From the NCBI GenBank assembly GCA_026707285.1, contig JAPOXD010000010.1, positions 1-64,000 of the forward strand: DNA of 64,000 bases, read 5' to 3'. Under the pieces are notes generated by a model. That model was given only the letters and a program-made list of their open reading frames with translations. It searched no databases and was not told the DNA's origin. Both the position numbers and the translations under genes were made by a program. This document shows, piece after piece, positions 6,662 to 27,595 of this stretch (positions are counted from its first letter, which is position 1; each line of letters starts with the position of its first letter). The DNA is from Chloroflexota bacterium. GTDB taxonomy: Bacteria; Chloroflexota; UBA11872.

Positions 6662-7732
6662 TTAGGTTCGGTCCTCGAGGCGCAGCCAGCGCAGGCCGAC
6701 GCAGCCCGTGGCGTCAGCCGCGGGATGCAGGACGCAGACGAGCTCGCGGCCACCGGTGGCTGCAATGTCGGGATAGCCGCAGCGCACGCCGTCGGCCTTC
6801 GGAGGCGGGCCGGAAGACGGGGCGGCCAGCCAGCCCAGGCGCCGCCAGGTCTCGCCGTCGTCCTCGCTGACGCTGCACGCCACGCCGGATCGATTGCCGC
6901 GCTCGTCGCGGTAGGCGCAGAGCACCGCGCTGGACTGGAGGCGGTGCAGCTTGATGTTGGCGCCGGCGAAGTCGGTCGGGCGCGGCTCGCTCCAGGTTCG
7001 GCCTTCGTCGGCTGAGTGGGCGAAGACACTGGGGTGACCGCCGAACACCCGCGCCACGGCGAGGAAGCGCCCATCGGCCAGCCGCACGATGTCCATATCG
7101 CCGAAGCCGAGTCGTGGGTGCTCGGCCACGATCACCGGCGGCGAAAAGGTGGCGCCGAGGTCGTCGGTGAAGGTGACGCCGGCACGCCAACCGACATCGC
7201 GTCCGGTCGTGCCGATGACGGCGAGCATGTGGCGGCCGTCGGCCAGTCGATGCGGATTGCTGGCGCCGTAGAGCTCCGTCCACCCTGGGAAAAGGCGGAT
7301 TTCCGGGCTTACGGGTGACCATGTTTCTCCACGGTCGGTCGATGTCCGTGTGGCCATATGCCAGCCGGTACACGGCTCGTCGCCGGTCAGGGTCGGATCG
7401 ATCTGGAGCCGGCCCAGCGCCAGCAGCAACCTCGTGTCGCTGAATGGCATGAGCCCGCCCATGTTGAGGCAGTCCCAGCTGGCTTTCGCGTAGATCGCTT
7501 CGGGTGTGGTCCATGTCGTCCCGTCGTCGTCGGAGCGCGCGACCATCAGCAGGCCGTTGTTGAGCCGGCGGGCGCCCGGGACGCGGCTGAAGCTGAGGAC
7601 GAGCCGTCCGCCCGGCACCCGCGTCAGACTGGCCATGTGGTGGATGTGCGGCTCGTCGGAGGCAAGGAGCTTGCGCGCGTCCTGCACGCCGATCGGCGCG
7701 TCGGCAGGAAGGACAGGATCGCCGGGAGTCAT
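6662..7732 (-). CDS. Exo-alpha-sialidase/BNR-repeat protein
   Basis: The 356-residue protein carries at least five Asp-box (BNR) motifs of the form S-x-D-x-G-x-T-W: SDDDGTTWTTPE, STDRGETWSPV, TDDLGATFSPP, SADEGRTWSEP and SEDDGETWRRL. They are spaced around a six-bladed propeller as in sialidases. Arg residues that bind the sialate carboxylate cannot be assigned by eye, so other exo-glycosidase or lectin roles are possible. No signal peptide is visible. Convergent with the preceding gene (6 bases apart) and divergent from the transporter operon at 8106. Its likely promoter region lies at 7733-7900. Confidence 0.72.
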   Translation of the reverse strand: MTPGDPVLPADAPIGVQDARKLLASDEPHIHHMASLTRVPGGRLVLSFSRVPGARRLNNGLLMVARSDDDGTTWTTPEAIYAKASWDCLNMGGLMPFSDTRLLLALGRLQIDPTLTGDEPCTGWHMATRTSTDRGETWSPVSPEIRLFPGWTELYGASNPHRLADGRHMLAVIGTTGRDVGWRAGVTFTDDLGATFSPPVIVAEHPRLGFGDMDIVRLADGRFLAVARVFGGHPSVFAHSADEGRTWSEPRPTDFAGANIKLHRLQSSAVLCAYRDERGNRSGVACSVSEDDGETWRRLGWLAAPSSGPPPKADGVRCGYPDIAATGGRELVCVLHPAADATGCVGLRWLRLEDRT

Positions 7733-8105
7733 CGAATCTGGTCCTCACGCGGCGTGCTGATCCGCTTAATCGGACTACACCTACATGGGTCTGTGGCCGA
7801 ACCATGGTATTTGGCTGCGTGGACTTCACATGCCGTCCGCGCGATTGGCGCGACTGCGCTTGTGCGGATTTGGCTCGAGTGCCGCGCCGGCGCAGCTACG
7901 CGGCGGTAGTGGGCAAGATCGGCGCCGTTGTGCAGCCTGGTGATCCAACGCCGGCGGCCATCCTTGAATCGTCGCTTGACCCGAGGGGTGGATTCCCGCC
8001 TTCGCGGGAATGACGGATACCAAGCTCTCCACGATCCAGGCGGTACGCCGGAAGCCCTCGCATGCGAAGATGGCGGGCGCTGCAGGGTTGAAGGCACTCG
8101 CCCCG
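7733..8105. other. Divergent intergenic region with a palindromic repeat
   Basis: No gene is supported in these 373 bases. It separates the minus-strand sialidase-like gene from the plus-strand transporter operon and should hold both promoters. A minus-strand TACCAT (7809 to 7804) is a -10 candidate for the sialidase-like gene. The palindrome at 7992-8011 is annotated separately. Reading frames that extend the ATPase gene back to 8010 begin inside that palindrome and are not preferred. Confidence 0.45.
7989..8014. repeat. REP-like palindrome (ATTCCCGC-CTTC-GCGGGAAT)
   Basis: Perfect 8-bp inverted arms at 7992-7999 and 8004-8011 flank a CTTC loop, followed by GACGG. The form resembles the small dispersed palindromes (CATTCC...GGAATC) that occur in many bacterial genomes. 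The pair at 44711-44793 in this window is of the same general type. It could act as a hairpin in RNA but has no T tract, so it is not a typical terminator. Confidence 0.55.
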
Positions 8106-9299
8106 ATGGCCGCGCAAGAGTCGCAAATCGTCGTCAACGACCTCTGGAAGGTCTTTGGCTCTCGACCGGAGCGAGTATTCGAGCCGGAACATGCCTCCAA
8201 GAGCCGCGCGGAGCTTCAGGATGAACTGGGCCTGGTCACCGGACTCCGCGAGGTGTCGTTCACCGTGGATAAGGGCGCGGTCTTCGTGGTCATGGGGCTA
8301 TCCGGCAGCGGCAAGTCGACCCTGGTGCGATGCCTCATCCGGCTGATCGAAGCCACCAGGGGGCAGGTCTACTTCGACGGCGAGGACGTGCTCGGCTACA
8401 CCCAAGCGCAGCTCATTGAGTTTCGCCGGCGCAAGACGGCGATGGTGTTTCAGCACTACGGGCTGCTCCCGCACCGCACCGTCATCGACAACGTGGCCGT
8501 CGGTCTCGAGATTCGCGGGATCGACAAACCGACCCGCTACCGGATGGCGGCCGAGACAATCGAAACCGTGGGGTTGAAGGGGTGGGAAAGCTATCGCCCG
8601 CACGAAATGAGCGGCGGTATGCAGCAGCGCGTGGGGCTGGCGAGGGCATTGGCGGTCGATCCCGACGTGCTGCTGATGGACGAGCCGTTCAGTGGGCTGG
8701 ATCCGCTCATCCGCCGCGAAATGCAGGACGAGCTGGTCTCGCTGCAGACTGAATTGCACAAGACCATCGTGTTCATCACGCACGACCTCGACGAAGCCCT
8801 CAAGCTCGGTGACCGCGTCGCGATCATGCGCGACGGTCAAATCGTGCAGCAGGGTTCGCCGGAGGAGATCGTCACCCTGCCCAGCGATGACTATGTGACC
8901 GACTTCGTGCAGGATGTCTCGCGGGCCAAGGTGGTGCAGGCGCGGGCGATCATGGGCGAGCCCGACGTAGTCATCTACGAGCGGCAGGGACCGCGCGCGG
9001 CGCTGCACGCCATGCAGCAGCACAAGCTCGACGCCGTGTTCCTGATCAGTCAATCCTTCACCTTGCGCGGCATCCTCACCAGGGATCGGGCGACGGCCCT
9101 GGCCGCGCAGGGCGCCAGATCGCTCCACGGGGCGCCGGTGGACCAGGCGGTCACCACGTCTCCCGACACATTCATCGCCGACGTGATTCCGATCGCCGCC
9201 CAAAGTCAACATGCCGTGGCCGTCGTCAGCGACAACGGCAGCCTGCTGGGCGAGATTCGTCGGGCCGTGCTGCTAGAGGCCGTGGCGCAGGTCGGCTAG
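8106..9299 (+). CDS. proV: Glycine betaine/proline ABC transporter ATP-binding subunit (ProV/OpuAA type)
   Basis: This is the cytoplasmic ATPase of an osmoprotectant importer. It shows Walker [10 protein letters not shown], the Q-loop in [12 protein letters not shown], signature SGGMQQR, Walker [12 protein letters not shown] and the switch His in ITHDLDEAL. The long helical N-terminus ([19 protein letters not shown]) is characteristic of ProV and OpuAA, and the C-terminal 120 residues look like a CBS pair used for ionic-strength or cyclic-nucleotide sensing. I start at the ATG at 8106, which follows GTTGAAGG (8087-8094); ATGs at 8070 and 8010 are alternatives. It is first of three genes, 10 bases before the permease. 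Confidence 0.92.
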
Positions 9300-14715: not shown

Positions 14716-14730
14716 GTGCGGCAGAATGGT
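14716..14730 (+). promoter_or_regulatory. Repeated upstream box, copy 1 (GTGCGGCAGAATGGT)
   Basis: The same box occurs 49-51 bases before the ATG of each of the four cyclophilin genes: here, and at 15543, 16372 and 17095. CAGAAT inside it could be a -10 element. The constant distance to the start codon argues for a function in transcription or the mRNA leader. Confidence 0.45.
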
Positions 14731-14765
14731 CGGCAGAACGTCATGCGGTCGGGGAGATGATCGTG

Positions 14766-15386
14766 ATGCGACAAGCGATCCTGGTCGGGCTGTCGGCCCT
14801 GTTGCTCATTGTCGTGGCGGGCTGCGGCGAAGCGGAGCCGGAAGGGCCTCCGGTCTACGACGCCTACCCGGAGATGGAGATTGATCCGCTCCGGCCCTAC
14901 AGCGTCACCTTCACCACCAGCGTCGGACGCATCAGCTTCGTCCTGAATCCCGAAGAGGCGCCGCTGGCGGTCAACAGCTTCATTTTCCTCGCCAACAGCG
15001 GCTACTACGACGGTGTGGCGTTTCATCGCATCGTCCCCGGGGTGCTGGCTGAAACCGGGGACGCCACGGGCACGGGCACCGGCAACCCGGGCTACACCTT
15101 CGAGGTCGAGCCGCCGCAGCGGCCTTACCAGCGGGGAGGCATTGCCTTGGCCAATGATGGGACGCCGAATTCAAATGGATCGCGCTTCTTCTTCATCCTC
15201 GGCGACCTTGCGGGAAGTGCCGAAGCGCCGCATGACTACACCGTCTTCGGCCACTACAAGGAAGACCACGCGCCGTCATTGGCCACGCTCGACAAGATCG
15301 AAGCCGCCCAGGAAGAAGTCACGATCTTGTCGCTGAGGGCCACGGAAGGCTGCCTGCCGAGCTGGGGCGGCTACGGCCCGTGCTAG
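14766..15386 (+). CDS. Cyclophilin-type peptidyl-prolyl isomerase lipoprotein, copy 1
   Basis: This 206-residue lipoprotein has a signal ending in the lipobox VAGC followed by a GEAEPEGPPVYDAYP linker, then a cyclophilin domain: FHRIVPGV, GNPGYTFEVEPPQRPY and NSNGSRFFFILGD. It should act outside the cytoplasmic membrane, anchored by lipid, to isomerise Xaa-Pro bonds in exported proteins. Positions that correspond to human CypA Phe60, Gln63 and Gln111 are Val, Glu and Arg here, so the active site is atypical. The ATG at 14766 follows GGGGAG with good spacing and matches the start of the other three copies; an ATG at 14757 is possible. First of a tandem array of four. Confidence 0.85.
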   Translation: MRQAILVGLSALLLIVVAGCGEAEPEGPPVYDAYPEMEIDPLRPYSVTFTTSVGRISFVLNPEEAPLAVNSFIFLANSGYYDGVAFHRIVPGVLAETGDATGTGTGNPGYTFEVEPPQRPYQRGGIALANDGTPNSNGSRFFFILGDLAGSAEAPHDYTVFGHYKEDHAPSLATLDKIEAAQEEVTILSLRATEGCLPSWGGYGPC

Positions 15387-15542
15387 GACCGATGGCGGGC
15401 ACCACCTAGCTCGATCCATGGGCGTCCACGCCGTCTTGTTGGCGCATGGCGCCGATGAGCTAAACCGATGGGTCGGGCGGCGGCGGATGACGGGTCGTCG
15501 ATCCGCATGTCGGTCGCGCTACCTTCACCATACTCCTGTCAG

Positions 15543-15557
15543 GTGCGGCAGAATGGT
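15543..15557 (+). promoter_or_regulatory. Repeated upstream box, copy 2
   Basis: GTGCGGCAGAATGGT, 51 bases before the ATG of the second cyclophilin. A TTCACC (15524-15529) lies 19 bases upstream of its CAGAAT part, as it also does in copy 3, and could be a -35 element. Confidence 0.45.
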
Positions 15558-15593
15558 TGGCGGACCCAGGGGCTGACGGGGGTGGAGCGCATG

Positions 15594-16214
15594 ATGCGGC
15601 GAGTGACACTCCTTGGGCTAGTTGCCCTCATGCTCATCGCGGTGACGGCGTGCGGCGAGGCGGAGCCGGAAGGGCCGCCGGTCTATGAGGCCTACCCACC
15701 GATGGGGATTGATCCGCTCCGGTCCTACAGCGTCGTTTTCACCACCAGCGTCGGACGCCTCACCTTCCAGCTGCTTCCGGAAGAGGTGCCGCTGGCGGTC
15801 AACAGCTTCGTTTTCTTGGCAAGGGAGGGTTACTTCGACGGCGTGACGTTTCATCGCATCGTTCCGGGAGTGCTTGCCGAAACGGGCGACGCGACGGGAA
15901 CGGGCACCGGCAACCCGGGCTACACCTTCGAGGTGGAGCCGCCGCAGCGGCCCTATGAACGCGGTGGCATCGCCCTGGCCAACGACGGGACGCCGAACTC
16001 CAACGGATCGCGCTTCTTCTTCATCCTGGGCGATCTCGCGGGCAGCGCCGAGGCGCCGCATGACTACACGGTCTTCGGCCATCTGAAACCGGATCACGCG
16101 CCGTCGGTGGCAACGCTCGACAAGATCGAGGCCGCCCAGGAAGAGGTCATCATCCGGTCGCTGCAGGTCACCGAGGGATGTCTGCCGAGCCGGGGCAATT
16201 ACGGGGCATGCTAG
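15594..16214 (+). CDS. Cyclophilin-type peptidyl-prolyl isomerase lipoprotein, copy 2
   Basis: A 206-residue paralogue of the gene at 14766. It has a signal MRRVTLLGLVALMLIAVTAC with the lipobox Cys at residue 20, the same acidic-proline linker, and the same cyclophilin motifs (FHRIVPGVLAETGD, NSNGSRFFFILGD). Substitutions at three CypA active-site positions are the same as in copy 1. Tandem ATGs occur at 15591 and 15594; the second matches the other copies and has better spacing from GGAG. The upstream intergenic sequence (about 15440-15590) is also similar to that before copy 3, showing that gene and promoter were duplicated together. Confidence 0.85.
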   Translation: MRRVTLLGLVALMLIAVTACGEAEPEGPPVYEAYPPMGIDPLRSYSVVFTTSVGRLTFQLLPEEVPLAVNSFVFLAREGYFDGVTFHRIVPGVLAETGDATGTGTGNPGYTFEVEPPQRPYERGGIALANDGTPNSNGSRFFFILGDLAGSAEAPHDYTVFGHLKPDHAPSVATLDKIEAAQEEVIIRSLQVTEGCLPSRGNYGAC

Positions 16215-16371
16215 GGCCGACTTCGGCCAACGCGCAGCTCGCTTCATGGGTGCAGGCGCCATCCGAATGGGCGCGTGGCGCCGGCGAGTCGAGCCGATGG
16301 GCCGGGCGGCTGCGGATGACGAGTCCTCGACCCGCATGGCGGATGCGGTACGTTCACCATGCCCCTGTCAG

Positions 16372-16386
16372 GTGCGGCAGAATGGT
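16372..16386 (+). promoter_or_regulatory. Repeated upstream box, copy 3
   Basis: GTGCGGCAGAATGGT, 49 bases before the ATG of the third cyclophilin, with TTCACC at 16353-16358 placed as in copy 2. Confidence 0.45.
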
Positions 16387-16420
16387 AGGCGGACCCAGGG
16401 GCTGACGGGAGAAGCGCAGG

Positions 16421-17041
16421 ATGCGGCGAGTGACACTTCTTGGGCTGGCGGCCCTAATGCTCTTCGTCGTGACGGCGTGCGGCGAGACGGAACCGGAGGG
16501 GCCGCCGGTCTTCGATGCCTACCCATCGATGGAGATCGATCTGCGCCGGTCCTACAGCGTCATCTTCACCACCAGCGTCGGACGCCTCACCTTCCAGCTG
16601 CTGCCGGAAGAGGCGCCGCTGGCGGTCAACAGCTTCATTTTCCTCGCCAACGAGGGCTACTACGACGGCGTCGCGTTTCATCGCGTCGTCCCCGGCGTGC
16701 TCGCCGAGTCGGGCGACGCCACCGGAACGGGCACCGGCGATCCGGGGTACACCTTCGAAGTGGAGCCGCCGCAGCGGCCCTACGAGCGCGGAATGATCGC
16801 GCTGGCCAACGACGGGACGCCGAACTCCAACGGCTCGCGGTTTTTCTTCATCCTGGGCGACCTCGCGGGAAGCGCCGAGGTGCCGCACGTGTACACCGTC
16901 TTCGGCCATCTGAAACCGGATCACGCGCCGTCGGTCGCCACGCTCGACAAGATCGAGGCGGCGCAGGAAGAGGTCATCATCGTGTCGGTGAAGGCGACGG
17001 AGGGCTGCCTGCCGAGCGGTGGTCCTTTCCAGTGCTCATGA
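16421..17041 (+). CDS. Cyclophilin-type peptidyl-prolyl isomerase lipoprotein, copy 3
   Basis: Third 206-residue member of the array, with the signal MRRVTLLGLAALMLFVVTAC, lipid-attachment Cys at residue 20, and a cyclophilin fold (FHRVVPGVLAESGD, then NSNGSRFFFILGD). It is closest by eye to copy 2 in both gene and upstream region, including the GACCCAGGGGCTGACGG leader. Expected location and role are as for the other copies: a membrane-anchored extracytoplasmic folding factor or a degenerate cyclophilin used for binding. The ATG at 16421 follows GGAGAAG. Confidence 0.85.
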   Translation: MRRVTLLGLAALMLFVVTACGETEPEGPPVFDAYPSMEIDLRRSYSVIFTTSVGRLTFQLLPEEAPLAVNSFIFLANEGYYDGVAFHRVVPGVLAESGDATGTGTGDPGYTFEVEPPQRPYERGMIALANDGTPNSNGSRFFFILGDLAGSAEVPHVYTVFGHLKPDHAPSVATLDKIEAAQEEVIIVSVKATEGCLPSGGPFQCS

Positions 17042-17094
17042 CGGATCTTGGACTCGCACGGGAGTCGCGCTCCGTCTAGCCAGGTTCAGGGTAG

Positions 17095-17107
17095 GTGCGG
17101 CAGAATG
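17095..17107 (+). promoter_or_regulatory. Repeated upstream box, copy 4
   Basis: GTGCGGCAGAATG, 50 bases before the ATG of the fourth cyclophilin. Sequence outside the box has diverged from the other copies more than the box has. Confidence 0.45.
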
Positions 17108-17144
17108 TCGGGTGGACCCTGGGCCTGACGGGGAGACGGGTGCC

Positions 17145-17765
17145 ATGCGGCGAGTGACAATCCTTGGGCTAGCTGCCCTAGTGCTCATCGTCGTGGCCGC
17201 GTGCGGTGAGTCCGAGCCCGAAGGGCCTCCGGTCTACGACGCCTATCCGACGATGGAGGTTGAAGATCAGCGGGGCTATAGCGTCACCTTCACCACCAGC
17301 GTCGGGCGCATCCGATTCGTGATGTTGCCGCAGGAAGCACTGCTGGCGGTCAACAGCTTCATCTTCCTGATCAACGAGGGTTACTACGACGGCCTCGCGT
17401 TTCATCGGGTGGTCCCCGGACTGTTCGCCGAATCGGGCGACGCGACGGGCACGGGCACCGGCAACGCGGGCTACACCTTTGAAATCGAGCCACCGCAGCG
17501 GCCGTACGCGCGCGGACTGATTGCCCTGGCCAACGACGGGACGCCGAACTCCAACGGATCGCGGTTCTTCTTCATCCTCGGCGACCTGGCCGGAAGCGCC
17601 GAGGCGCCGCACGAGTACACGATCTTCGGCCATGTCAGGGAAAACCATGCGGTGTCTTGGGCGACGTTGGACAAAATCGAGGCCGCGGAGGAAGAGGTCA
17701 CCATCCTGTCGACGGTCGCGACCGAAGGTTGCCTGCCAGCCTGGATGGGCTTCGGCCGGTGTTGA
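17145..17765 (+). CDS. Cyclophilin-type peptidyl-prolyl isomerase lipoprotein, copy 4
   Basis: Fourth and most divergent member, also 206 residues. Signal MRRVTILGLAALVLIVVAAC with lipobox Cys at residue 20; cyclophilin motifs FHRVVPGLFAESGD and NSNGSRFFFILGD. The CypA Phe60 position is Leu and Gln63 is Glu. GGGGAGACGGG precedes the ATG at 17145. A longer frame running back to 17019 overlaps copy 3 and is not preferred. It is the last gene before the integrated element, whose left boundary is about 100 bases downstream. Confidence 0.85.
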   Translation: MRRVTILGLAALVLIVVAACGESEPEGPPVYDAYPTMEVEDQRGYSVTFTTSVGRIRFVMLPQEALLAVNSFIFLINEGYYDGLAFHRVVPGLFAESGDATGTGTGNAGYTFEIEPPQRPYARGLIALANDGTPNSNGSRFFFILGDLAGSAEAPHEYTIFGHVRENHAVSWATLDKIEAAEEEVTILSTVATEGCLPAWMGFGRC

Positions 17766-17868: not shown

Positions 17869-17886
17869 GTGGAGATGAGGGGACTC
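17869..17886. repeat. Left attachment repeat (att core)
   Basis: GTGGAGATGAGGGGACTC is identical to 27578-27595, the 3' end of tRNA-Ala. After one mismatch a further AACCC also matches. This is the distal copy created by site-specific integration into the tRNA gene; the rest of the tRNA is absent here. Confidence 0.85.
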
Positions 17887-17913
17887 CAACCCTCATCATG
17901 CAACCCAAACCTG

Positions 17914-19110
17914 TTAAATGGCATCCGCGCGACCGCTTCTGCTCATATTTTGTGCATAGTTTCCGGCCAAAGCGTCCGCCAAACGGTCGGCGGCGGCGCG
18001 TTTCGTGGTGCTGTGCGGGTGCACGTAGCGGTCGGCCGTCATCGCGATCGAGCTATGCCCAAGCATCTCGGAGACCGTCACCAGGTCCACGCCAGCGGCG
18101 ATAGCGAGCGTGGCCGCCGTGTCTCGCAAGTCGTGGATTCGTAGTTTCGGCAGACCGGCCACGCGCAGCGCCTCGGCAAACCAGCGGGTGAGCGTGTTCG
18201 GCCCGATGGGTACGCCGTGCGTCCGGGCGCGGCCGTCCAGTCGCGTGAACACAAAGCCGCGGTCCTCGTAGGCCGATCCCAATTCCGCCCGCAATGCGTC
18301 CTGCTCGTCTTTGTGACGCTTCAGCACCACCATGGCTGGCTCGCCGGCGTGGACCAGGCGGTCCGTCCCGGTTTTGGTCGGCCCGAGGCCAAAGCCGCCG
18401 CCCGGCTGCCGGGTGAGTTGCTCGTGCACGTGGATCGTCCGGTGAGTGAAGTCCACCGCATCCCAGCGCAGCCCCAGCGCCTCGCCGCGCCGTAGGCCCG
18501 TATGGAGCAGCAGGTGGACGATGGGATAGAGCTGCCGAAGCCGCGCGTTGCCCATGCGGCACACGTCTAGGAGGGCTTGCGCCTCGTGGACCGCCAGCAC
18601 GCGGTACTCGCGGCGCCGCCGTGGCGGCAGTGCGATACCTACGACCGGATTCGTGGTGAGCAGGCGACGCCGGACGGCGAGCTTGCCCAGGGCGCCCAGT
18701 ACAAGCCTCAGGGTCTCCGCCGTGGCGACTTTGCCCTGGTCCACGACCAGGTCGACGCAATGTTGAACCTCCCCGTGCGTCAGCCGGTCGAGCCGGATAT
18801 GCCCCAGCGTCGGCACGACGTAGGTCTGAACAACCGTGTCGTACCGCCGCCAGGTGCCGAAGGTTCGCGTCCGCTTGATCTGCGCCAACCACTGTGCGGC
18901 GAAGGTGGCGACGGTGAGGCGGCCGTGGTCGACGTTTAGACCGACCTCCAGGTCGCCGATAAACTTGCGCCACTCACGCTGTAGCTCGCGCTTGGTGCGC
19001 GCGGTCACGGTTCGAGCTTTATATCGCCCTCCGCCGACGTGGACCCTGAGCTGATACCGATGATTGCCGCGCTCGGTGACGGAGCCGGGCAGGGAGCCGG
19101 CGCGCGTCAC
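17914..19110 (-). CDS. int: Tyrosine recombinase (phage-type integrase)
   Basis: The 398-residue protein has an N-terminal Arm-DNA-binding region (beta strands around RYQLRVHVGGG), a SAM-like core-binding domain (about 66-160) and a catalytic domain. Catalytic residues are visible: Arg in HTGLRRGEALGLRW (about residue 210), Lys in GPTKTGTDR, His-x-x-Arg in HDLRDTAATL, and His and Tyr in LGHSSIAMTADRYVH. It would recombine the tRNA-Ala attachment sites. It starts at GTG, overlapping the stop of the excisionase-like gene (GTGA). Its last codons overlap a 16-bp repeat also found near the other end of the element. It lies beside the left att repeat. Confidence 0.95.
   Translation of the reverse strand: MTRAGSLPGSVTERGNHRYQLRVHVGGGRYKARTVTARTKRELQREWRKFIGDLEVGLNVDHGRLTVATFAAQWLAQIKRTRTFGTWRRYDTVVQTYVVPTLGHIRLDRLTHGEVQHCVDLVVDQGKVATAETLRLVLGALGKLAVRRRLLTTNPVVGIALPPRRRREYRVLAVHEAQALLDVCRMGNARLRQLYPIVHLLLHTGLRRGEALGLRWDAVDFTHRTIHVHEQLTRQPGGGFGLGPTKTGTDRLVHAGEPAMVVLKRHKDEQDALRAELGSAYEDRGFVFTRLDGRARTHGVPIGPNTLTRWFAEALRVAGLPKLRIHDLRDTAATLAIAAGVDLVTVSEMLGHSSIAMTADRYVHPHSTTKRAAADRLADALAGNYAQNMSRSGRADAI
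17937..17952. repeat. Putative integrase arm-type site, left
   Basis: TTCTGCTCATATTTTG occurs here, 51 bases inside the left att core, and again in the same orientation at 27467-27482 near the right att core. It is AT-rich compared with its surroundings. Matching short repeats inside both ends of an integrated element are expected of arm-binding sites for tyrosine integrases. Confidence 0.55.
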
Positions 19111-19385
19111 GTCGGCAGCCGCACGATCTCGGCGTCGGCCTCGGGCGCGTCGGGCATGAGCGCGCCGGCTTCGAGCGCCTGCATGAACCGACGGCGCGGA
19201 ATGAGCATTCTCATGCCGGCCCTCATGCAGGGAATCGTCCCCCGGTGAATGGCCGTACGCACGAATCCCGGGCCGACACGCAGGACGGCGGCCACTTCCT
19301 CGACGGTCCAGAATTCTTGCGCGTGGAGACTCGCCAGTTCGTCGGCGGTCAGGAGTCGGCGGGGAACCTTAGGCATCGTCGCCAT
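19107..19385 (-). CDS. Excisionase/MerR-like helix-turn-helix protein
   Basis: The 92-residue protein contains EFWTVEEVAAVLRVGPGFVRTAIHRGTIPCMRAGMRMLIPRRRF, the usual winged-helix pattern of HTH_17/excisionase-family proteins (about residues 23-67). Such proteins bend DNA at att sites and set the direction of recombination. It directly precedes the integrase gene with a 4-base GTGA overlap and is itself overlapped 17 bases by the upstream gene, so the three are one operon. The ATG at 19385 follows GAGG; an ATG at 19376 is possible. Confidence 0.75.
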   Translation of the reverse strand: MATMPKVPRRLLTADELASLHAQEFWTVEEVAAVLRVGPGFVRTAIHRGTIPCMRAGMRMLIPRRRFMQALEAGALMPDAPEADAEIVRLPT

Positions 19386-19758
19386 CGTCGGCAACCTCAA
19401 GGCCAGAGGCGAAGTGAATACGCACGTGCGGCTCCCACGGTGGCCGCCAATCGGGCGCGTTGCTCCAGGTGGCGATCCGCGAGTACCCATCGGCCGGCGG
19501 CTCCGGGTCGATCCAAATCCAGTAGGTCTCGCCGTCACGCTTCCACCAACCGTTGGGTACTTGGTGATAGCCACTGGCCGCTGGGTCGAATTCTGGGTCC
19601 GGCGGGAATACCACGCGCTGTGTGCGCCAATCCGCCGCCGGCGACGTGGCCTGTATGCGGATGTACTCCTGAAGCGTCAATCCCCATTCCGCGGCAAATT
19701 TCTTCGCTACTCGAAGGTCGCCGGGGTGGAAACGAGTATTGATTTGCTGCCCCTTCAT
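19369..19758 (-). CDS. Hypothetical protein with N-terminal ribbon-helix-helix-like segment
   Basis: The 129-residue protein starts MKGQQINTRFHPGDLRVAKKFAAEWGLTLQEYIR, which has the strand-helix-helix layout of ribbon-helix-helix repressors. The remainder is rich in Trp and Pro (WKRDGETYWIWIDPEPP, then WSNAPDWRPPWEPHVR) and is unfamiliar. It is first in the leftward int operon, overlapping the excisionase-like gene. A repressor of its own operon, perhaps binding the TCAGGATACCA repeats just upstream, is a reasonable guess but is only inference. Confidence 0.6.
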   Translation of the reverse strand: MKGQQINTRFHPGDLRVAKKFAAEWGLTLQEYIRIQATSPAADWRTQRVVFPPDPEFDPAASGYHQVPNGWWKRDGETYWIWIDPEPPADGYSRIATWSNAPDWRPPWEPHVRIHFASGLEVADDGDDA

Positions 19759-19809
19759 GCCAAGCCTTTCTGTTGGCCGGGGAGTAGTGGACCGTCACTT
19801 CCCTGCCAA

Positions 19810-19841
19810 TCAGGATACCACGCTGGCCATTCAGGATACCA
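19810..19841. promoter_or_regulatory. Pair of direct repeats, candidate operator
   Basis: TCAGGATACCA occurs at 19810-19820 and 19831-19841, 21 bases apart, which is two helical turns. The pair lies between the leftward int operon and the rightward gene at 19940, the normal place for a switch operator. Confidence 0.5.
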
Positions 19842-19939
19842 GATGGTGTCAGGAGCGTAGCCCGCACCGCCGGAGGGTAGTGTCCGGTTTTGACAACTTC
19901 CGGCCGGGGGACGCCATGGGGCTACCATAGAGGAGCCGG

Positions 19940-20275
19940 TTGGCAGAAAAAGAAGTGGCCGTGCCTGAATGCGTCGTGGCCTTCCTCAAAGAGTGGGCAC
20001 CGACCCTGTGGTACATGGCGGGGTTGCTGGGGTTCTGGGTTGGCGCGGGCGTACTGACCTTTCGTTCTGCCGTGAGGGCCTGGCACTCCAGGGGTTTCCA
20101 GCGGGTGGCGGGGCAAAACGCAAAGGGCGTGCAGAGCTTTGCCGAGTATGAGCCATCCGCCGATCAAGCCGTGTGGGTGTACTCCAGCCTGTGGGTGCTG
20201 GTGGTGGCTGCCATCCTTGGGCCTGCGTCCATCGTGTTCGCGTTGATCTACTGTCGTTACCTCAGCGACACCTAA
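19940..20275 (+). CDS. Small membrane protein of the element, unknown function
   Basis: This 111-residue protein has two strong hydrophobic segments, about residues 23-45 (LWYMAGLLGFWVGAGVLTF) and 80-105 (WVYSSLWVLVVAAILGPAS), with a charged loop between. It is the only rightward gene of the element and points toward the end of the packaging operon, with which it is convergent. The TTG at 19940 is preceded by AGGAG (19931-19935); GTG at 19958 or 19964 is possible. No family is recognised. Its isolated position resembles accessory genes of prophages and satellites (exclusion, immunity or lysis-related), but nothing in the sequence decides. Confidence 0.55.
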   Translation: MAEKEVAVPECVVAFLKEWAPTLWYMAGLLGFWVGAGVLTFRSAVRAWHSRGFQRVAGQNAKGVQSFAEYEPSADQAVWVYSSLWVLVVAAILGPASIVFALIYCRYLSDT

Positions 20276-20399
20276 CGGGTGTCGTCGCCGTCGATCTCGA
20301 ACGCGACCGTGTGCTTGGCGCAGGTGTCCAGTTTCAGGCGGCGGAGCGCCGCTCCTTGTGGCAGCCGTGGCACTTGCGCAAGCGCCGACTACGTGGCAT
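20272..20399 (-). pseudogene. Possible frameshifted Cys/His-rich small gene at the end of the packaging operon
   Basis: An ATG at 20399 overlaps the end of the connector gene and encodes MPRSRRLRKCHGCHKERRSAA before a stop at 20334. In another frame the sequence continues as LKLDTCAKHTVAFEIDGDD to a stop at 20272. Together they would give a C-x2-C...C-x2-H zinc-binding layout followed by a short strand, as if one frame was broken. The length is small and no homologue is recognised, so this may be chance. Confidence 0.3.
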
Positions 20400-20892
20400 C
20401 GCCCACCGCGTAGGGCGACGCCGGCGCGAGCGCCAGCCATTGCGCCACGTAGGGCCGCACGATGGCGGCTAGGTCCAGGCCGAGCGTGCGCTCCAGCGGG
20501 TCCGGCAAGTGCCGGAAGTATTCGGCCTCTTTCGGCCCGATCTGCTCGCGTTTCACGTCCATGGCATCGCCCGTCAGCTCGCGCGGATGCCGCACCAGGT
20601 CAGCCGCGATCAGGATCGCCGCCGCCTCGATGCCCGCCGGTACGCCGGTGGTGCCGATGCCCGCGCGCGGCCATGCGGTCGCTTGGCTGGCTTGCGCCTT
20701 GGTCCCGCGCCACGGCAGCCGGTCCAACGCGCGCGTCGCCGTCACCAGGGCGCGGCGCTTGGCGTCCGTTTCGGCGGCGTTCCATGTGGTCCGCTGCGGC
20801 CCCGCCTCGGCCAGCATGTAGGCGTTGGCTTCGGCGACGCTGGCATAGGTCGGTATCGACGTGCTGCCCAGCGTCACGCTCGACAGGCTCAC
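20389..20892 (-). CDS. Head-tail connector-like protein (DnaT-like/gp6-like)
   Basis: The 167-residue protein contains YASVAEANAYMLAEAG, then NAAETDAKRRALVTATRALDRLPWRGTKA and WPRAGI, the pattern of small phage proteins annotated as DnaT-like or head-tail connector proteins that follow portal or capsid genes. The helical DPLERTLGLDLAAIVRPYV tail fits connector folds. It starts with GTG overlapping the stop of the portal gene. In a capsid-forming satellite this protein would make the interface to a tail supplied by a helper phage. The family link is by pattern and gene position. Confidence 0.6.
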   Translation of the reverse strand: MSLSSVTLGSTSIPTYASVAEANAYMLAEAGPQRTTWNAAETDAKRRALVTATRALDRLPWRGTKAQASQATAWPRAGIGTTGVPAGIEAAAILIAADLVRHPRELTGDAMDVKREQIGPKEAEYFRHLPDPLERTLGLDLAAIVRPYVAQWLALAPASPYAVGDAT

Positions 20893-21911
20893 GCGGCATC
20901 CTCCAGGCCCATCAACCGCAGCGCCTGGTCGGCGTCCACGTCGCCGCGCATGAGCGCCGCCGCCCCGCGTGCGAGGCCCTGGAGGTCGCGGTCGAATGCC
21001 GGCAGCGTGAGCCGTACGCTCGCGTCCAACTGTTCGGACAATTCCGCCGCCATCAGCGCGAGCCGCGGCGCTACCCAAAGCTGGCGGAACGCGCGCACGG
21101 CGTCCACGTCGCCACGCGAGTACTCGCGCGAGAGGCCGCACGCCGCCAGCATGGTCGCCTCTACGTCGGTGCGCAGCTGCACGGCGTCCTCGTCCGGTTC
21201 CGCCCGCGTTGCCGCCATCTCGTAGTAGTCCGACGGCCGGCGCTGCGACGCGCGCGCGTCCACGTTGGGCGCGCCCGGCACGCCGCCCGTGCTGACGATG
21301 ATCGGCGAGCCGCGCGAGTGCGCGTTCTTGGTCGCACTGCGCAGACTGTCGGCGACGGCCTGGAGCGCGGAGTCGGGGTCGCCTTGGGCGGCCAATTGCT
21401 GATAGCTCAGATTCCAGTCGGCCGGCAGCGCGCGAAAACTCACGATGCGCGACTCCGCCAACAGGCTCAATTGGAGCGCCAGCGCCGTCGCAGCGTCCGC
21501 CGTGCCGTGCCACGGTCCCAGGCCGCCGTCGGCCCAGTCGTGCACGACTAAGGCGTCGCGCGCTATCGGCGCGTCTCGGTCTGCGCCCGTGCGCCGGATG
21601 CGCCACGGGTCGCGCTTGGTCACGGTCACGGGATCCAGCGTGGCGGATCCATCCACGATGCGGATCTCATGGGTGGCGCTGCCGTCGCGGATCAGCCGCT
21701 CGCCGACGTTGGCGAGATAGCGCGCGCTCACGGCCGGCGGCGCGCCGGCCACGTCGGCGCTCGCCAGCACGGCGGCCCACGCGCTAGACGCGGTGCGCCG
21801 CGCTTGCGTCGTCTGTGGCCCAACGCTGCCAGCGGCGGCGGCGGCCAGCGCTTCGGCCAGTGTGTCGGTATAGCTGGCGCGGTGCTCGGCTCGCCAGAAT
21901 CGGAGCCTCAC
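20889..21911 (-). CDS. Phage portal protein
   Basis: The 340-residue protein has the order of elements expected of an HK97-type portal, though shorter than the usual 380-450 residues: VRLRFWRAEHRASYTD at the start, a helical stem-like region ATALALQLSLLAESRIVSFRALPADW in the middle, a loop PIIVSTGGVPGAPN, and a long C-terminal helix segment (YSRGDVDAVRAFRQLWVAPRLALMAAELSEQL). Portals form the dodecameric DNA channel at one capsid vertex. The GTG at 21911 overlaps the protease stop codon. The assignment rests on these patterns and on its neighbours, and a remote-homology search would be needed to make it firm. Confidence 0.65.
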   Translation of the reverse strand: MRLRFWRAEHRASYTDTLAEALAAAAAGSVGPQTTQARRTASSAWAAVLASADVAGAPPAVSARYLANVGERLIRDGSATHEIRIVDGSATLDPVTVTKRDPWRIRRTGADRDAPIARDALVVHDWADGGLGPWHGTADAATALALQLSLLAESRIVSFRALPADWNLSYQQLAAQGDPDSALQAVADSLRSATKNAHSRGSPIIVSTGGVPGAPNVDARASQRRPSDYYEMAATRAEPDEDAVQLRTDVEATMLAACGLSREYSRGDVDAVRAFRQLWVAPRLALMAAELSEQLDASVRLTLPAFDRDLQGLARGAAALMRGDVDADQALRLMGLEDAA

Positions 21912-22849
21912 AGCCACAGCCGCCGACTCTCGCCAGCCGCGACCGGCTGACGCGTGGCGTCCTCTGGCAGCAGCCAGCGCTCGCGCGTCGCCAGCGTGAT
22001 CGCCGTGAGTATCGGGTCGCGGACGACGCCGACGGTGATCGCGTCGCCGGCGCTTAGGCCCGTGCCGGCCTCCTGGATGTCTTCGACCACGCCGGTAAAC
22101 GTCGGGTCGGGATAGACACGGTTGCCAGCGGCCAGCCACGCGCGGATGTCCTCCGCGCCGCTCGTCTCCGGCAGCTCGGGCACGTCGAACGTAAAGCCGC
22201 CGTTGCGCTCCTTGGCGAGCCGTAGCGTGCCGCCACTGTGCGACGCCAGCGGCGAGCGGTCGAAGTAGAGCGCTACGTCGCGCGTGCCGGGCGCGAAGTC
22301 CTCCGGCAGATGCACCAATCCTTGCGGGCGCGTTTTGCGACGTCCACGGCCGCCGGCGCGCTCGATGCGCTCGCGGCCCATGTCCCAGCGTCCCGACAGT
22401 CCGCCGCCGCGTCCCAGCGTCGCGGCCTGCCGCACTTCGACGCTTGCGCCGGCGTAGGCCGGCTGCCGGCCCTCAAGTAGCGCAATGCCGAGTAGCGCGG
22501 CGCTGCCGATCACGCGCTCGCCGCCCATCCGCCGCTCCTTGAGCGCCTCGAATTCCACGCTTGCGCCCGTCGCCGTCACGGGCCGCGATAGACGCGCCTC
22601 GAAGCGCAGCGCGTCCGGCCCGTCCACCATGCGCAGCGTGCCGTCGTTCAGCGCCGCCAGTGTGTCGCCGGCGTCGTGGTTGCGATTCGCCACCAGGCCG
22701 GGCGCGTACAGCACCGCACCTGGTTCCCAGCGTTCAATCACGCGCTCGCCGCTCGGCAGTAGCACGTCGGCGCGCTCGCCGTAGGGCATGGCGACGCCTC
22801 GAGCGGTCCGCCCGTCCAGCTCCAGGTCGCGCGCGCGCCGTTCGATCAC
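21908..22849 (-). CDS. HK97-family prohead protease with a second protease-like domain
   Basis: Residues 1-150 follow the prohead protease plan: ARGVAMPYGERADV, ERWEPGAV, then VANRNHDAGDTLA with the catalytic-type NHD, LRFEARLSRPVTATGASVEFEALKERR with the Ser region, and ALLGIALLEGRQPAYAGASVEVRQ. Residues about 168-300 repeat the plan in weaker form: LPEDFAPG, DRSPLASHSGGTLRLAKE, GGFTFDVPELP. The family is normally one domain of 150-200 residues, so 313 residues with two copies is unusual. It would cleave the capsid N-terminal region during maturation. It starts with GTG 4 bases after the capsid stop, and it overlaps the portal start. Confidence 0.75.
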   Translation of the reverse strand: MIERRARDLELDGRTARGVAMPYGERADVLLPSGERVIERWEPGAVLYAPGLVANRNHDAGDTLAALNDGTLRMVDGPDALRFEARLSRPVTATGASVEFEALKERRMGGERVIGSAALLGIALLEGRQPAYAGASVEVRQAATLGRGGGLSGRWDMGRERIERAGGRGRRKTRPQGLVHLPEDFAPGTRDVALYFDRSPLASHSGGTLRLAKERNGGFTFDVPELPETSGAEDIRAWLAAGNRVYPDPTFTGVVEDIQEAGTGLSAGDAITVGVVRDPILTAITLATRERWLLPEDATRQPVAAGESRRLWL

Positions 22850-22853
22850 GGCG

Positions 22854-24089
22854 CTAGGTGACGTACTTGACGCGCTTGAAGCTGGCCGGGCGCGGTAGCG
22901 CGAAGTTCCACAAGTACTCCAGCGTCAACGCGACTTCGCCACTCTTGGCGGCCGTGTACGGGTCGCGAATCAGCCGGCCCGAATTCCATACGGGCGCGAC
23001 GCCGGCGTTGGCGATGCCGCGCCCCAGGCCGATGAACGCGCCGAAGTCGCCGTTGGCGGTCGCCGTTTCGATCTCGCCTCGCGTGCGCCACGTGACGCCG
23101 TTCTCCCGCAGGAATGCGGCTAGTGTTTGGTTTGAAGTGTCCGGCGCCGCGATGGTCGCCAACCACAACGTGTTGGAGCCAACGGTCGCGACCAAGCGCA
23201 CGTCGCCAAGGCTGCCGGCGTGGATGCCATCGACGAAGCCGGCCAGCACTTCCAGCACCTTGTCGGGCTTGATCTTGTTAGCTTGCGTAAGCGTGCTTTC
23301 GGCAATGGCCGCCGTGGTGAGGCCGGTGATGTCGGCGCTGTTTTCGTTCGCGCCCGCGTCGCCGACGAAAATCGTCCGGTCGATCTTCTCCACCATCGCG
23401 GCTCGTAGGTCAGCCCGGATGGCGTCGGCCAGGCCCGGCAGCCGCGCGTCGTCTTCGACGCTGTAGACGGCTCGCACGCTATTGCGCGTCGGCTTGACCT
23501 CCGTGACGGTCGCCGTGATGGTCGCGTCGACCGCGGCCTCGGTGCGCCCGCGCTGCGCCGGCGCCGCGTTGCTGCCGATGACCGGATAGGCGCGCACACC
23601 GGCCGGCACGCTCGGCATGGTGATGCCCAACGCGCCCGCCGCCGCGTCGGCGAACAGGCGATCTAACCAGGTCCCTTGCGTGGTGCCGGCGTCGCCGTCC
23701 ACGGCGGCCCGGTGCTCCGCGCCATCGTCCAGAAGGTCCAGGGGGAAGCGATCCGCCGGCACGTCTAGCGCCTGGTTGTACTCGGCAGCCGCGCCGCCGG
23801 TCACGCCATGACCGGCCAGTGCGCCGCGGATGTAGTCGCCGAAGTCCACGCGCGAGCGCAACTCCGTCAGCTGGTGATCCTCGCCGCCGCCGCCATCGCC
23901 GTCACCATCGCCGCCGTCGCCTTCGACGGTGATCGCCGCGCGTAGCTCGACTTCGCCGGCCTGGTAGTCGGCCGTCAGGGTCGCGAGTGCGGAGCGCTCC
24001 TCATCGGTGCGCTCCTCTTGCGCCAGGAGCGCGTTGATTCGCTCGCGGCGCTCCGACTGCTTGACTTCGATTTTCTGCCGGGTGGTCAT
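22854..24089 (-). CDS. HK97-fold major capsid protein
   Basis: The 411-residue protein begins with a charged helical delta-like domain (residues 1-55: EVKQSERRERINALLAQEER), a Gly/Asp linker (about 56-70), and a capsid body with typical HK97 features: VRAYPVIGSNAAPAQRGRTEA, ATVTEVKPTRNSVRAVYSVEDDARLPGL and AIRADLRAAMVEKIDRTIFVGDAG (the spine helix), and a C-terminal AKSGEVALTLEYLWNFALPRPASFKRVKYV. It assembles the procapsid. The ATG at 24089 follows AGAGGA and is preferred to longer frames that enter the HNH gene. It is followed at once by the protease gene, an order reversed from most phages. Confidence 0.88.
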   Translation of the reverse strand: MTTRQKIEVKQSERRERINALLAQEERTDEERSALATLTADYQAGEVELRAAITVEGDGGDGDGDGGGGEDHQLTELRSRVDFGDYIRGALAGHGVTGGAAAEYNQALDVPADRFPLDLLDDGAEHRAAVDGDAGTTQGTWLDRLFADAAAGALGITMPSVPAGVRAYPVIGSNAAPAQRGRTEAAVDATITATVTEVKPTRNSVRAVYSVEDDARLPGLADAIRADLRAAMVEKIDRTIFVGDAGANENSADITGLTTAAIAESTLTQANKIKPDKVLEVLAGFVDGIHAGSLGDVRLVATVGSNTLWLATIAAPDTSNQTLAAFLRENGVTWRTRGEIETATANGDFGAFIGLGRGIANAGVAPVWNSGRLIRDPYTAAKSGEVALTLEYLWNFALPRPASFKRVKYVT

Positions 24090-24106
24090 GGGTCCTCTTT
24101 CTGGCG

Positions 24107-24430
24107 CTAGTAAAAGCCGCCGATGATGGCCGGTTCCGGTTCCGCTGGGATCGCGTCGGCGACGTGCCGCCGCCACTCGCGGCGCGACGTGCTCACGCGG
24201 CCATGGCGCAAGCCGTGGCAGTGGGCGCACAACGCGATCAACTGGCGCACGTGGGGGAACGGGTCGCCGCCGTCGCCGATGGCGTCCACGTGGTGGACTT
24301 CAAGCCGCCGCGCCGGCTCGCCGCACTGTTCGCAGGCACCCCGCGCCCGCCGCCGCACACGACCGCTGAGCCGACGCCAAAGGGACGAAGCGTAGACCTT
24401 GCTGACCTTGCGACGGGCGCGGGTGTGCAT
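24107..24430 (-). CDS. HNH endonuclease
   Basis: This 107-residue protein has a zinc-stabilised HNH core: CEQCG (about residue 33), EVHHVDAIGDGGDP (HH...D) and LCAHCHGLRHG. HNH proteins next to the large terminase are required for cos-type packaging in many HK97-like phages and in capsid-forming satellites, where they stimulate terminase cleavage. It lies between the terminase (76 bases upstream) and the capsid gene (17 bases downstream). The gap before it contains a pair of TGTAAAC repeats that may regulate the downstream genes. Confidence 0.9.
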   Translation of the reverse strand: MHTRARRKVSKVYASSLWRRLSGRVRRRARGACEQCGEPARRLEVHHVDAIGDGGDPFPHVRQLIALCAHCHGLRHGRVSTSRREWRRHVADAIPAEPEPAIIGGFY

Positions 24431-24437
24431 ACAGATA

Positions 24438-24466
24438 GTTTACACAATGCACACAAAACGTTTACA
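24438..24466 (-). promoter_or_regulatory. Pair of TGTAAAC repeats before the HNH-capsid genes
   Basis: On the minus strand TGTAAAC occurs at 24466-24460 and 24444-24438, 22 bases apart, in an AT-rich island within a GC-rich operon. The spacing of about two helical turns suits an operator, and TAAACT (24442-24437) could be a -10 box. It suggests separate control of the HNH, capsid, protease, portal and connector genes. Confidence 0.4.
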
Positions 24467-24506
24467 TCCGCTGCAAACCACGACAAAGCGCCGATCCCCG
24501 CGGCGT

Positions 24507-26018
24507 CTACCAGGGCGTCACCATCACGGCCGGCGCCGGCATTGGCGCGGCGGCGGCGCGCGATCCCTCGGCGATGGCCTGCACGGCGGCCGTAAGCGCG
24601 TCGATGCGGCCATGCGCTCGCGCCCGGTCCAACTTCGGATTTCCCGCCGCGTCGTACAGCACGGCCGACTCGGCGATGGCGGCCTCTAGCGCCAGGCTGC
24701 GGCCCAGCCGCACGCGCCGCTCGATGATCGCCGTTTGGGCGGCTCGCACGTCTTCGGAGCCGTCGCGCCAGCCCAAGCCGCGAAACTCGCGCGGCCAGTG
24801 GATGCCGGCGGCGTCTAGCGCGTCGTGCGCTTCGGCCTCGCGGTAGCGGTCGCCCACCACGGCGGCGACGGGCTGGCCGGCCAGGTCGTCCACCAAGTCC
24901 GCCAGGAAGTGCCGCACGGGCGTCACTCGGCCGGCATAGGTCCGCAGCTCGCCGCGCCGCGCCAGGTCCACGTAGAGGCCGCCGCAGCCATCGGCGCGCC
25001 CGCGCTCCCATAGGTCCGGTTCCGTGCCGCACGCGACCCACGCCTCAAGGCGGCCCGACGCCGGCCAGTAGGCGGCCGCGGCCGTGAGGCTCGCACTGCC
25101 GCCCAAGTCGAGGCCCACGACGCACAGGCCCTCGCGCGCCGGCGGCGTCGGCATGACGCACGCCTGCCAGTCGGCCAGCGCGACGAACGGGTCGGAGACT
25201 ACTTCGCTTGCTCCGAGATTCAGCCGCAGCGCGCGAAACCGTGCGGCGGCGGAGGCATCCACCTTGGCGCGCTTCGCCTCGGTTCGGTAGGCGGCCAGCA
25301 ACGGCGCGAACGCGGGCGCGCGTAGGCTCGGGTTGGCTTTCTCCCACGTGCGCCGGCGGAACGGCTCGCCAGTGCCGACGTGCGCTTGCGCGAAGTCCGC
25401 GCCGCCGTCCAACAGGCGCCCGAACCAGTGCCGATCATCCGCCGGTCGCGTGCCGATGGCCAGCAGCCGCGCGTCGGCCTGTTTGCCGAGCGCCGTTTCG
25501 AGCGCCGCGAACATGGCATCGGCTTGCCCTCGCGGCCATTGCGCCGGCTCGTCGGCCAGAATCAGAGCCGGTGCCGGCCCGTGTAGGCGGTTGGGATCGC
25601 TGCCGACGCAGCGCAGCCGCTGGCCGGTGGCGCGGTGCGTCACCCGCGCGGCGTTCGCCGAATCCTCGACCCGCCAGCCCCTAGGCTCGGATTCAAGCGC
25701 GGGTCGGAGAAAGGCAAGCGCGTGCTCGAAGGCGATTTTTCCTTGGGCAAAACTGCTCGCGATAATCAGCGTTTCGCCGCGCGGTCGCGCCAGCGGTCCA
25801 TTGGGCATCAAGGCGGCAAGCGCGAGCGCCGCCGTCGTAGTCGTCTTCGCGCCGCCGCGCGCCATCGTGAGCGCCGCCGTTTGCACGCCGGGCCGCAACG
25901 CGCCGTGAATCCATCGGCGCTGCCATGGCATCAGCACCAGGCGCTCACCCGCTGCGGCGCCTTGGGTAATGCGCAGCCGTTCGAGGCCCGCGATTACGTC
26001 GCGAGCGGTGCTGCCCAC
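24507..26018 (-). CDS. terL: Phage terminase large subunit
   Basis: The 503-residue protein has the ATPase domain motifs of HK97-like TerL: LMPWQRRWIHGAL (adenine motif), MARGGAKTTTTAALAL (Walker A variant) near residues 52-67, and PALILADEPAQW (Walker B with catalytic Glu) near 148-160. The C-terminal nuclease domain shows VVGLDLGGSASLTAAAAYWP with the first metal-binding Asp and AHGRIDALTAAVQAI with a late Asp. It translocates DNA into the capsid through the portal. It starts with GTG inside the end of the SLOG-like gene (25-base overlap). No separate small subunit is recognised. Confidence 0.9.
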   Translation of the reverse strand: MGSTARDVIAGLERLRITQGAAAGERLVLMPWQRRWIHGALRPGVQTAALTMARGGAKTTTTAALALAALMPNGPLARPRGETLIIASSFAQGKIAFEHALAFLRPALESEPRGWRVEDSANAARVTHRATGQRLRCVGSDPNRLHGPAPALILADEPAQWPRGQADAMFAALETALGKQADARLLAIGTRPADDRHWFGRLLDGGADFAQAHVGTGEPFRRRTWEKANPSLRAPAFAPLLAAYRTEAKRAKVDASAAARFRALRLNLGASEVVSDPFVALADWQACVMPTPPAREGLCVVGLDLGGSASLTAAAAYWPASGRLEAWVACGTEPDLWERGRADGCGGLYVDLARRGELRTYAGRVTPVRHFLADLVDDLAGQPVAAVVGDRYREAEAHDALDAAGIHWPREFRGLGWRDGSEDVRAAQTAIIERRVRLGRSLALEAAIAESAVLYDAAGNPKLDRARAHGRIDALTAAVQAIAEGSRAAAAPMPAPAVMVTPW

Positions 26019-26416
26019 GCGCCTAGCTCGCGCTCAACGTCGCCGTCGCCGTCGCGCTGCATGGTGACGTAGTTATGCGGCACTTCCAGCGCTAGGCATT
26101 GCTCAAGTTCGTTTGCGGTGCCGTCGCTGACTCCATCGTGAATCAGCAGCACCCGATCGGCGTCTTTGACGATGGCGATGGCGCGATGATGGTATGCGCC
26201 GGTCCGTCGCTTGCGATGGTCGGCAAAGTGCAACGTGAGAGGCAGTGCTAAATCGCGGGCAACGTCGCGCGCAACTTGTGAGACACCTTCAGGCTCACCC
26301 GCCGTCACGATGCCGCGTACGGCATGGCGCGAGATTTCGGCCAGCAACGCGCGGCGCACGGCCGGCCCGCTCAGGCTGCGGCTGCCGAAAACCGCTAGGC
26401 GCTCGCGAATCTGCAT
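25994..26416 (-). CDS. SLOG/DUF2493-like Rossmann protein
   Basis: The 140-residue protein runs RLAVFGSRSLSGPAVRRALLAEI, then GIVTAGEPEGVSQVARDVARDLALPLTLHFAD, then GAYHHRAIAIVKDADRVLLIHDGVSDGTANELEQC. This is the Rossmann-like pattern of the SLOG superfamily (DprA, YspA and LOG-related), which bind nucleotides or nucleotide-derived ligands. In this family GSR, TAGE and SDGTANE form the ligand pocket. It is the third gene of the packaging operon and overlaps terminase translation. Its role in a mobile element is unknown; ligand sensing in induction or defence is speculation. Confidence 0.65.
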   Translation of the reverse strand: MQIRERLAVFGSRSLSGPAVRRALLAEISRHAVRGIVTAGEPEGVSQVARDVARDLALPLTLHFADHRKRRTGAYHHRAIAIVKDADRVLLIHDGVSDGTANELEQCLALEVPHNYVTMQRDGDGDVERELGAWAAPLAT

Positions 26417-26540
26417 GGCTCAAGGCTGGCAGCGGAGCGCCGCGTGTGTGGCGTCCGAAGTCCCGAAACGCTTCGGACGGCCCCAGGGTGGACGCGGGGG
26501 GACCCCAGCATCGCGCACCACGCCTTGCCACCACATGCGC

Positions 26541-26819
26541 TCAGCCACGGTTGCGCCGGGCTGCAGCCGCGAGGCACTTCTGGCAGCGGCTCCGCCCGTC
26601 ACTCGCCTGGCGACCGCACTGGATGCAGCGGCCCGCCGCTCGCCATCGGGCTCGACGGGCGCGCATGTAGTCGCGTTTGCGGATGACCTGGTGCGGATTG
26701 CGGCGCAGGTAGTCGCGCACGGCGGCCGTGTTCGCCGCCGTGCACGCCTCGCAGCGGCAGCGATGGTTGCCGTATCCGCCGCGCGTGCCGCTGGCCGGGC
26801 CGGCGATGCACTCAATCAT
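26541..26819 (-). CDS. Small zinc-finger-like protein of the element
   Basis: The 92-residue basic protein contains GYGNHRCRCEACTAANTAAVRDYLRR at the N-terminus and GRCIQCGRQASDGRSRCQKC at the C-terminus, giving paired CxC-x2-C and CxxC...CxxC sets likely to bind zinc. Similar short Cys-rich proteins occur in actinobacterial and other phages without assigned function. Its ATG overlaps the stop of the HTH gene (ATGA). A gap of 124 bases with no supported gene separates it from the SLOG-like gene. DNA or RNA binding is likely from the Arg content. Confidence 0.6.
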   Translation of the reverse strand: MIECIAGPASGTRGGYGNHRCRCEACTAANTAAVRDYLRRNPHQVIRKRDYMRARRARWRAAGRCIQCGRQASDGRSRCQKCLAAAARRNRG

Positions 26820-27445: not shown

Positions 27446-27456
27446 TCGCCGCCGGC

Positions 27457-27482
27457 CTGCTCATATTTCTGCTCATATTTTG
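27457..27482. repeat. Putative integrase arm-type sites, right (two copies)
   Basis: CTGCTCATATTT occurs twice in tandem at 27457-27468 and 27469-27480. The second belongs to TTCTGCTCATATTTTG (27467-27482), identical to 17937-17952 at the other end. The sites lie about 95-120 bases inside the right att core and just upstream of the first gene of the packaging operon, so they might also affect its promoter. Confidence 0.55.
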
Positions 27483-27577
27483 AGCGAAAACATGGCAAAC
27501 GGAGACAAACGGACGGCAGCCCAAAGGCGCTGCTAACAGAAGTAGCAGGCGTCATGGGCGACGCAGGGAAACCCCTC

Positions 27578-27595
27578 GTGGAGATGAGGGGACTC
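27578..27595. repeat. Right attachment repeat (att core in tRNA-Ala)
   Basis: GTGGAGATGAGGGGACTC, identical to 17869-17886. It covers the discriminator base, the 3' acceptor strand and part of the T arm of tRNA-Ala, so integration restores an intact tRNA. Confidence 0.85.

Follow-up and report, generated by a model that had tools for sequence, protein, structure and literature searches.

Among the best sequence and fold matches of the proteins described here are the streptococcal cyclophilins SlrA/PpiA (PDB IDs 7l6z and 7l6y), which are extracytoplasmic, lipid-anchored, single-domain proteins. Their PPIase activity has been shown, and the listed active-site residues are largely kept except for W121 (PMC11853100). 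The domain of human CWC27/SDCCAG-10 (PDB IDs 4r3e and 2hq6) is likewise among the top sequence and fold matches; it belongs to a nuclear spliceosome protein and carries Glu at W121, with F60 and Q63 kept in our alignment. The AquaCyps of marine Alphaproteobacteria provide an example of lineage-specific bacterial cyclophilins; they keep R55, F60, and Q63 and have large extensions. R55, F60, and Q63 were named the residues most important for cyclophilin catalysis, and AquaCyp300, which has an altered active site, shows a lower and more selective activity (PMC4898713). In addition, Q111 is one of the gatekeeper residues of the S2 pocket (PMC2911226).

The locus analyzed here departs from each of these systems. 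SlrA/PpiA are only about 30% identical to its products and are not described as an array, and our search of the open-access literature for tandem bacterial cyclophilin arrays returned nothing relevant. Large extensions like those of the AquaCyps are absent from the array proteins, in which both F60 and Q63 are changed.

An array of lipoprotein cyclophilins in one genus

In the window (the whole 64,000-nucleotide stretch of DNA that was analyzed), four lipoprotein cyclophilin genes lie head to tail on the + strand, spanning positions 14766 to 17765. We named them after their orthologs in congeneric genomes as copies A (14766 to 15386), B (15594 to 16214), C (16421 to 17041), and E (17145 to 17765); the source genome is referred to as G000. 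As the first-pass annotation had reported, they are consecutive 206-residue genes with a lipobox, an acidic-proline linker, and a cyclophilin domain, a description borne out by their open reading frames, their PF00160 matches, and a shared start. The length of 206 aa corresponds to a start at a conserved M-R codon pair, a choice backed by the orthologs; with in-frame starts farther upstream, copy A would be 207 or 209 aa long and copy B 207 aa. Pairwise protein identity between the four copies is 78 to 86%, and the repeat unit takes in about 40 nt 5' of each start, with unit spacings of 828, 827, and 724 nt. Duplication during assembly can be ruled out, in line with the earlier judgment that such an error was unlikely: the four genes show differences along their whole length, and five congeneric genomes that were assembled independently carry the array as well.

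PF00160 matches all four copies over 137 residues (E values of 9.6e-27 to 1.3e-24). An AlphaFold2 model of copy C (mean pLDDT of 83) matched cyclophilin structures, with a best E value of 6e-13, the streptococcal lipoprotein cyclophilins and human CWC27 being among the matches. The proteins thus belong to the cyclophilin fold by both domain match and model. They are distant from the E. coli-type enzymes, scoring 45 to 51 and 26 to 29 bits against the NCBIfam equivalogs for PpiA and PpiB, whose cutoffs are 308 and 297 bits. At the N terminus, copies A, B, C, and E have a lipobox Cys at residue 20 and the linker CGE(A/S/T)EPEGPP. Across the genus, all 28 intact array copies start with M(R/Q)(R/Q) and then present AAC, AGC, TAC, or VAC with Cys20. 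A basic n-region, a hydrophobic stretch, and a lipobox Cys near residue 20 are all present, as in bacterial lipoproteins, and from these sequence features we infer that the array proteins are exported by a type II signal peptide and lipidated at Cys20. Cys196 and Cys205/206 are invariant in intact copies and flank a type-specific loop; a disulfide bridge between these two C-terminal cysteines is plausible.

The five remaining species of the genus (G001 to G005) all have this array, and every intact copy is 206 aa long. Copy number is four in G005, five in G002, G003, and G004, and six in G001, giving 29 copies in the six genomes, 28 of them intact. In four species the copies run A-B-C-(D)-E, and in G003 and G004 they run A-C-B-D-E; G000 and G005 have no type D, which in G001 to G004 sits between C and E. 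The extra copy of G001 (G001:C14:12024-12699; L039, about 7525 to 8200) has a disrupted C terminus and is preceded by a degenerate form of the upstream element (TGCCGCAGAATG); it resembles a type E duplicate in decay.

The claim that such arrays are rare stands for the phylum. Genomes of this genus contain 10 to 12 PF00160 genes (ten in the 3.2-Mb source genome) versus at most 4 in the 245 other Chloroflexota genomes of our 251-genome sample, and sister-genus genomes have one each. Outside the genus, the best identity to copy A among 400 Chloroflexota genomes does not exceed 54%. Elsewhere in Chloroflexota, a 2.2-kb stretch in one genome of another family encodes three cyclophilin domains, of which two fall in open frames of 699 aa (G203:C185:12013-14165). 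The nearest named records are the Chloroflexota MAGs RHO3_bin_74 and jk18xAbins.3. MAGs with jk18 names were published as symbionts of Ircinia sponges (PMC9531527), and the genus is therefore sponge associated at least in part.

Active site and upstream element of the array clade

Residues are numbered according to CypA, from an alignment to human CypA and E. coli PpiB. In all 29 array copies, as well as in two dispersed families of the genus (G000:C24:5050 and G000:C56:47199), F60 is replaced by V or L, M61 by L or F, Q63 by E, and Q111 by R. The E63/R111 pair is found in 41 of 41 members of this noncanonical clade, all of which also keep R55, and F113 is kept in all array copies. Measured against a canonical PPIase, the array copies therefore have the catalytic R55 and lack F60, M61, and Q63 (and Q111). 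Position H126 is a Tyr in nearly all copies of the clade; this change is not special, because E. coli PpiB also has Tyr there.

The 25 canonical paralogs of the genus and the sister-genus gene keep Q63/Q111 and F60, and M61 is kept but for one I. Among the 57 distinct genus sequences fetched, 40 have E63/R111, 17 have Q63/Q111, and mixed pairs are absent. Beyond the genus, each of 100 genuine cyclophilin domains has Q63/Q111 (one further regex match is not a cyclophilin), in a set collected for similarity to the array from Chloroflexota genomes and from a genome scan restricted to two peptide patterns; rarer E63/R111 proteins may exist outside it. The noncanonical clade is monophyletic and nested among the canonical paralogs (support 100/98), and the active-site change thus most likely happened once.

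The canonical cyclophilins of the genus (e.g., G000:C56:72798, C38:142912, and C11:33072) share the lipobox, a related linker, and the fold with the array proteins, at 54 to 61% identity. They differ not only in keeping F60, M61, Q63, and Q111 but also in lacking the upstream element TGCGGCAGAATG. A genome motif search located this element on the + strand at positions 14717 to 14728, 37 nt before the start of copy A; 15544 to 15555, 38 nt before copy B; 16373 to 16384, 36 nt before copy C; and 17096 to 17107, 37 nt before copy E. These four are its only exact occurrences in the 3.2-Mb genome. Across the six genomes, it precedes 29 of 29 array copies, 27 times exactly and twice with one mismatch. 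Both dispersed noncanonical families have the CGCGGCARAATR form, CGCGGCA(G/A)AAT(A/G), upstream at a similar distance, and neither form was found before the canonical paralogs.

Control of other genes by the same element was rejected: of ten genomic matches to GCGGCARAATR, six are the upstream sites of noncanonical members, and the four others fall within probable coding sequence. A search of the array for sigma-70 consensus promoters and intrinsic terminators found none, and a sigma-54 reading of the element, made by eye, was dropped for misfit in spacing. Candidate functions of the element are those of a -10-like promoter element and of an operator; it could also be a plain promoter conserved by descent.

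Age and turnover of the array

In the protein tree, types group across the six species, with strong support for A (100/92), B (100/100), and E (100/99) and weaker support for C (71/94); type D is not resolved as one group. A DNA tree of residues 46 to 195 broadly agrees with this grouping. Type-diagnostic fixed residues number 20 for E, 9 for B, 5 for A, and 1 for C. Between paralogs of the source genome, dS is 0.38 to 0.67 and dN is 0.09 to 0.20, versus an ortholog pS of about 0.1 to 0.3. Because types group across species and paralog dS is large, the array is older than the diversification of the genus. The recent expansion suggested by the first-pass annotation is contradicted by copy number in close relatives, which is 4 to 6 in all five other species, and by divergence between copies. 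Between orthologs, mature-domain pN lies far below pS in every type, and this purifying selection on all types implies that all of them are maintained.

The gene conversion proposed as an alternative to that expansion is not borne out as the source of the constant blocks. At synonymous sites of the mature domain, paralogs from the same genome are no closer than paralogs from different genomes, the sole hint of within-genome similarity being C-D at residues 96 to 165. In the promoter/leader block, types B and C intermingle, and the monophyly of each is rejected by the AU test (P values of 0.0025 and 0.0005). In the domain, 27 of 28 copies have a nearest neighbor of their own type, versus 21 of 28 in the upstream/leader block. 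Some upstream blocks match the block of the gene after B in another species (G002_C, G003_D, and G004_D follow B). Unequal exchange at the near-identical 5' block would be the simplest cause of this mixing. Recombination is visible solely in the promoter/signal-peptide block, and the constant length and conserved blocks reflect selection on an old family rather than recent expansion or domain-wide gene conversion.

A second tandem pair, of canonical lipoprotein cyclophilins, is present in all six genomes (G000:C56:72798-74191; L046). Unlike the array domains, this pair may undergo gene conversion, since its two positions are not cleanly split by type in the tree.

Possible roles of the array and its genomic surroundings

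On balance, we favor the view that the array encodes envelope-tethered proteins of the cyclophilin fold, a co-regulated family specific to this genus, whose members would bind prolyl peptides with a weakened or altered isomerase activity. It is probably a specialized branch of the cyclophilin family rather than a recent multiplication for higher output. Under this scheme, tandem duplications that preceded the split of the six known species would have built up the array, which would change through gain and loss of copies and through unequal exchange at the near-identical promoter/leader block, with purifying selection keeping the mature domain types distinct. The copies would be co-regulated through the shared upstream element. 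Tethered to the surface, their products would act on prolyl-containing segments of exported proteins as prolyl-peptide binders or as foldases/holdases whose specificity is altered, and general isomerase activity would be weak or absent, ordinary PPIase activity being supplied by the 4 to 5 canonical cyclophilins of the same genomes. Such a role has precedents: SDCCAG-10 binds a prolyl peptide although no isomerase activity could be detected (PMC2911226), and pneumococcal PrsA, a lipoprotein that belongs to a different PPIase family, shows binding without catalysis (PMC11853100). Against a weakened isomerase, R55 and F113 are retained, the Q63E and Q111R changes are perhaps compensated in a still active enzyme, and the active streptococcal SlrA and PpiA lack W121, indicating that bacterial cyclophilins tolerate active-site changes. 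More tentatively, the array may consist of tandem pseudo-isomerases: in this sponge-associated genus, Q63 and Q111 would have been exchanged once for the coupled, charged E63/R111, with isomerase activity lost or redirected, before a radiation into conserved, non-redundant, envelope-tethered peptide-binding types. We regard this fuller scenario as possible.

The same retention of R55 and F113 could mean that the copies are active general isomerases, multiplied for envelope foldase dosage, with E63/R111 neutral or compensated. Copy numbers of 4 to 6 across species fit this idea, as does the presence of the shared upstream element before every copy at a like distance, which would sum expression. 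Although this is the main competing reading, we consider it rather unlikely, since positions 60, 61, 63, and 111 changed together and once, Q63 or E63 never occurring without the matching Q111 or R111, and since canonical paralogs are retained in the same genomes. Moreover, the types are old and distinct and have type-specific fixed residues, none of which pure dosage needs. With active-cyclophilin residues replaced in every copy and type-specific residues conserved, the expansion for dosage put forward in the first-pass annotation is not favored.

The proteins might also face the host, as surface lipoproteins of a sponge associate that diversified by binding host or community proteins or peptides, their role not being folding. 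The confinement of the family to one genus, the type-dependent loop between the two C-terminal cysteines, and the nearest relatives, Chloroflexota MAGs of which one comes from the published Ircinia set, are consistent with this proposal. It appears improbable given the strong purifying selection within types and a domain that shows no sign of diversifying selection. Least credible is a recent amplification kept uniform by gene conversion. Identical length, the 78 to 86% identity, and leader/promoter blocks exchanged between copies would all suit it, but the grouping of domain trees by type across species, the paralog dS values, and synonymous sites of the domain without within-genome homogenization leave it very little room.

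Cyclophilin active sites are strongly conserved, and the version multiplied in this genus is substituted at four positions, of which two are invariant in 41 sequences. The family therefore offers a natural experiment on which residues catalysis requires and on whether cyclophilins can be maintained as binders alone, and its private upstream element offers a handle on the timing of its expression. The neighborhood was also considered as a source of functional hints. The K+ channel gene upstream of the array does not adjoin it in G003 and G004, and no functional link was therefore drawn.

On the other side, a 9.7-kb phage-like element (positions 17869 to 27595) lies between the array and a tRNA-Ala gene. 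It is bounded by an 18-bp direct repeat, GTGGAGATGAGGGGACTC, at 17869 to 17886 and at 27578 to 27595, the latter being the 3' end of the tRNA-Ala gene. Its genes encode an integrase, an HTH/excisionase-like protein, a head-tail adaptor, a probable capsid protein, and the large subunit of a terminase, and none in these 9.7 kb was recognized as a tail gene. The element could be either a reduced prophage or a satellite that encodes a capsid. It is present in G003 at 91 to 92% identity, and the site is without the element in G001, G002, G004, and G005. Next to it, at 27578 to 27790, the tRNA-Ala(TGC) and tRNA-Ile(GAT) genes adjoin on opposite strands, unlike in the usual rRNA operon order.
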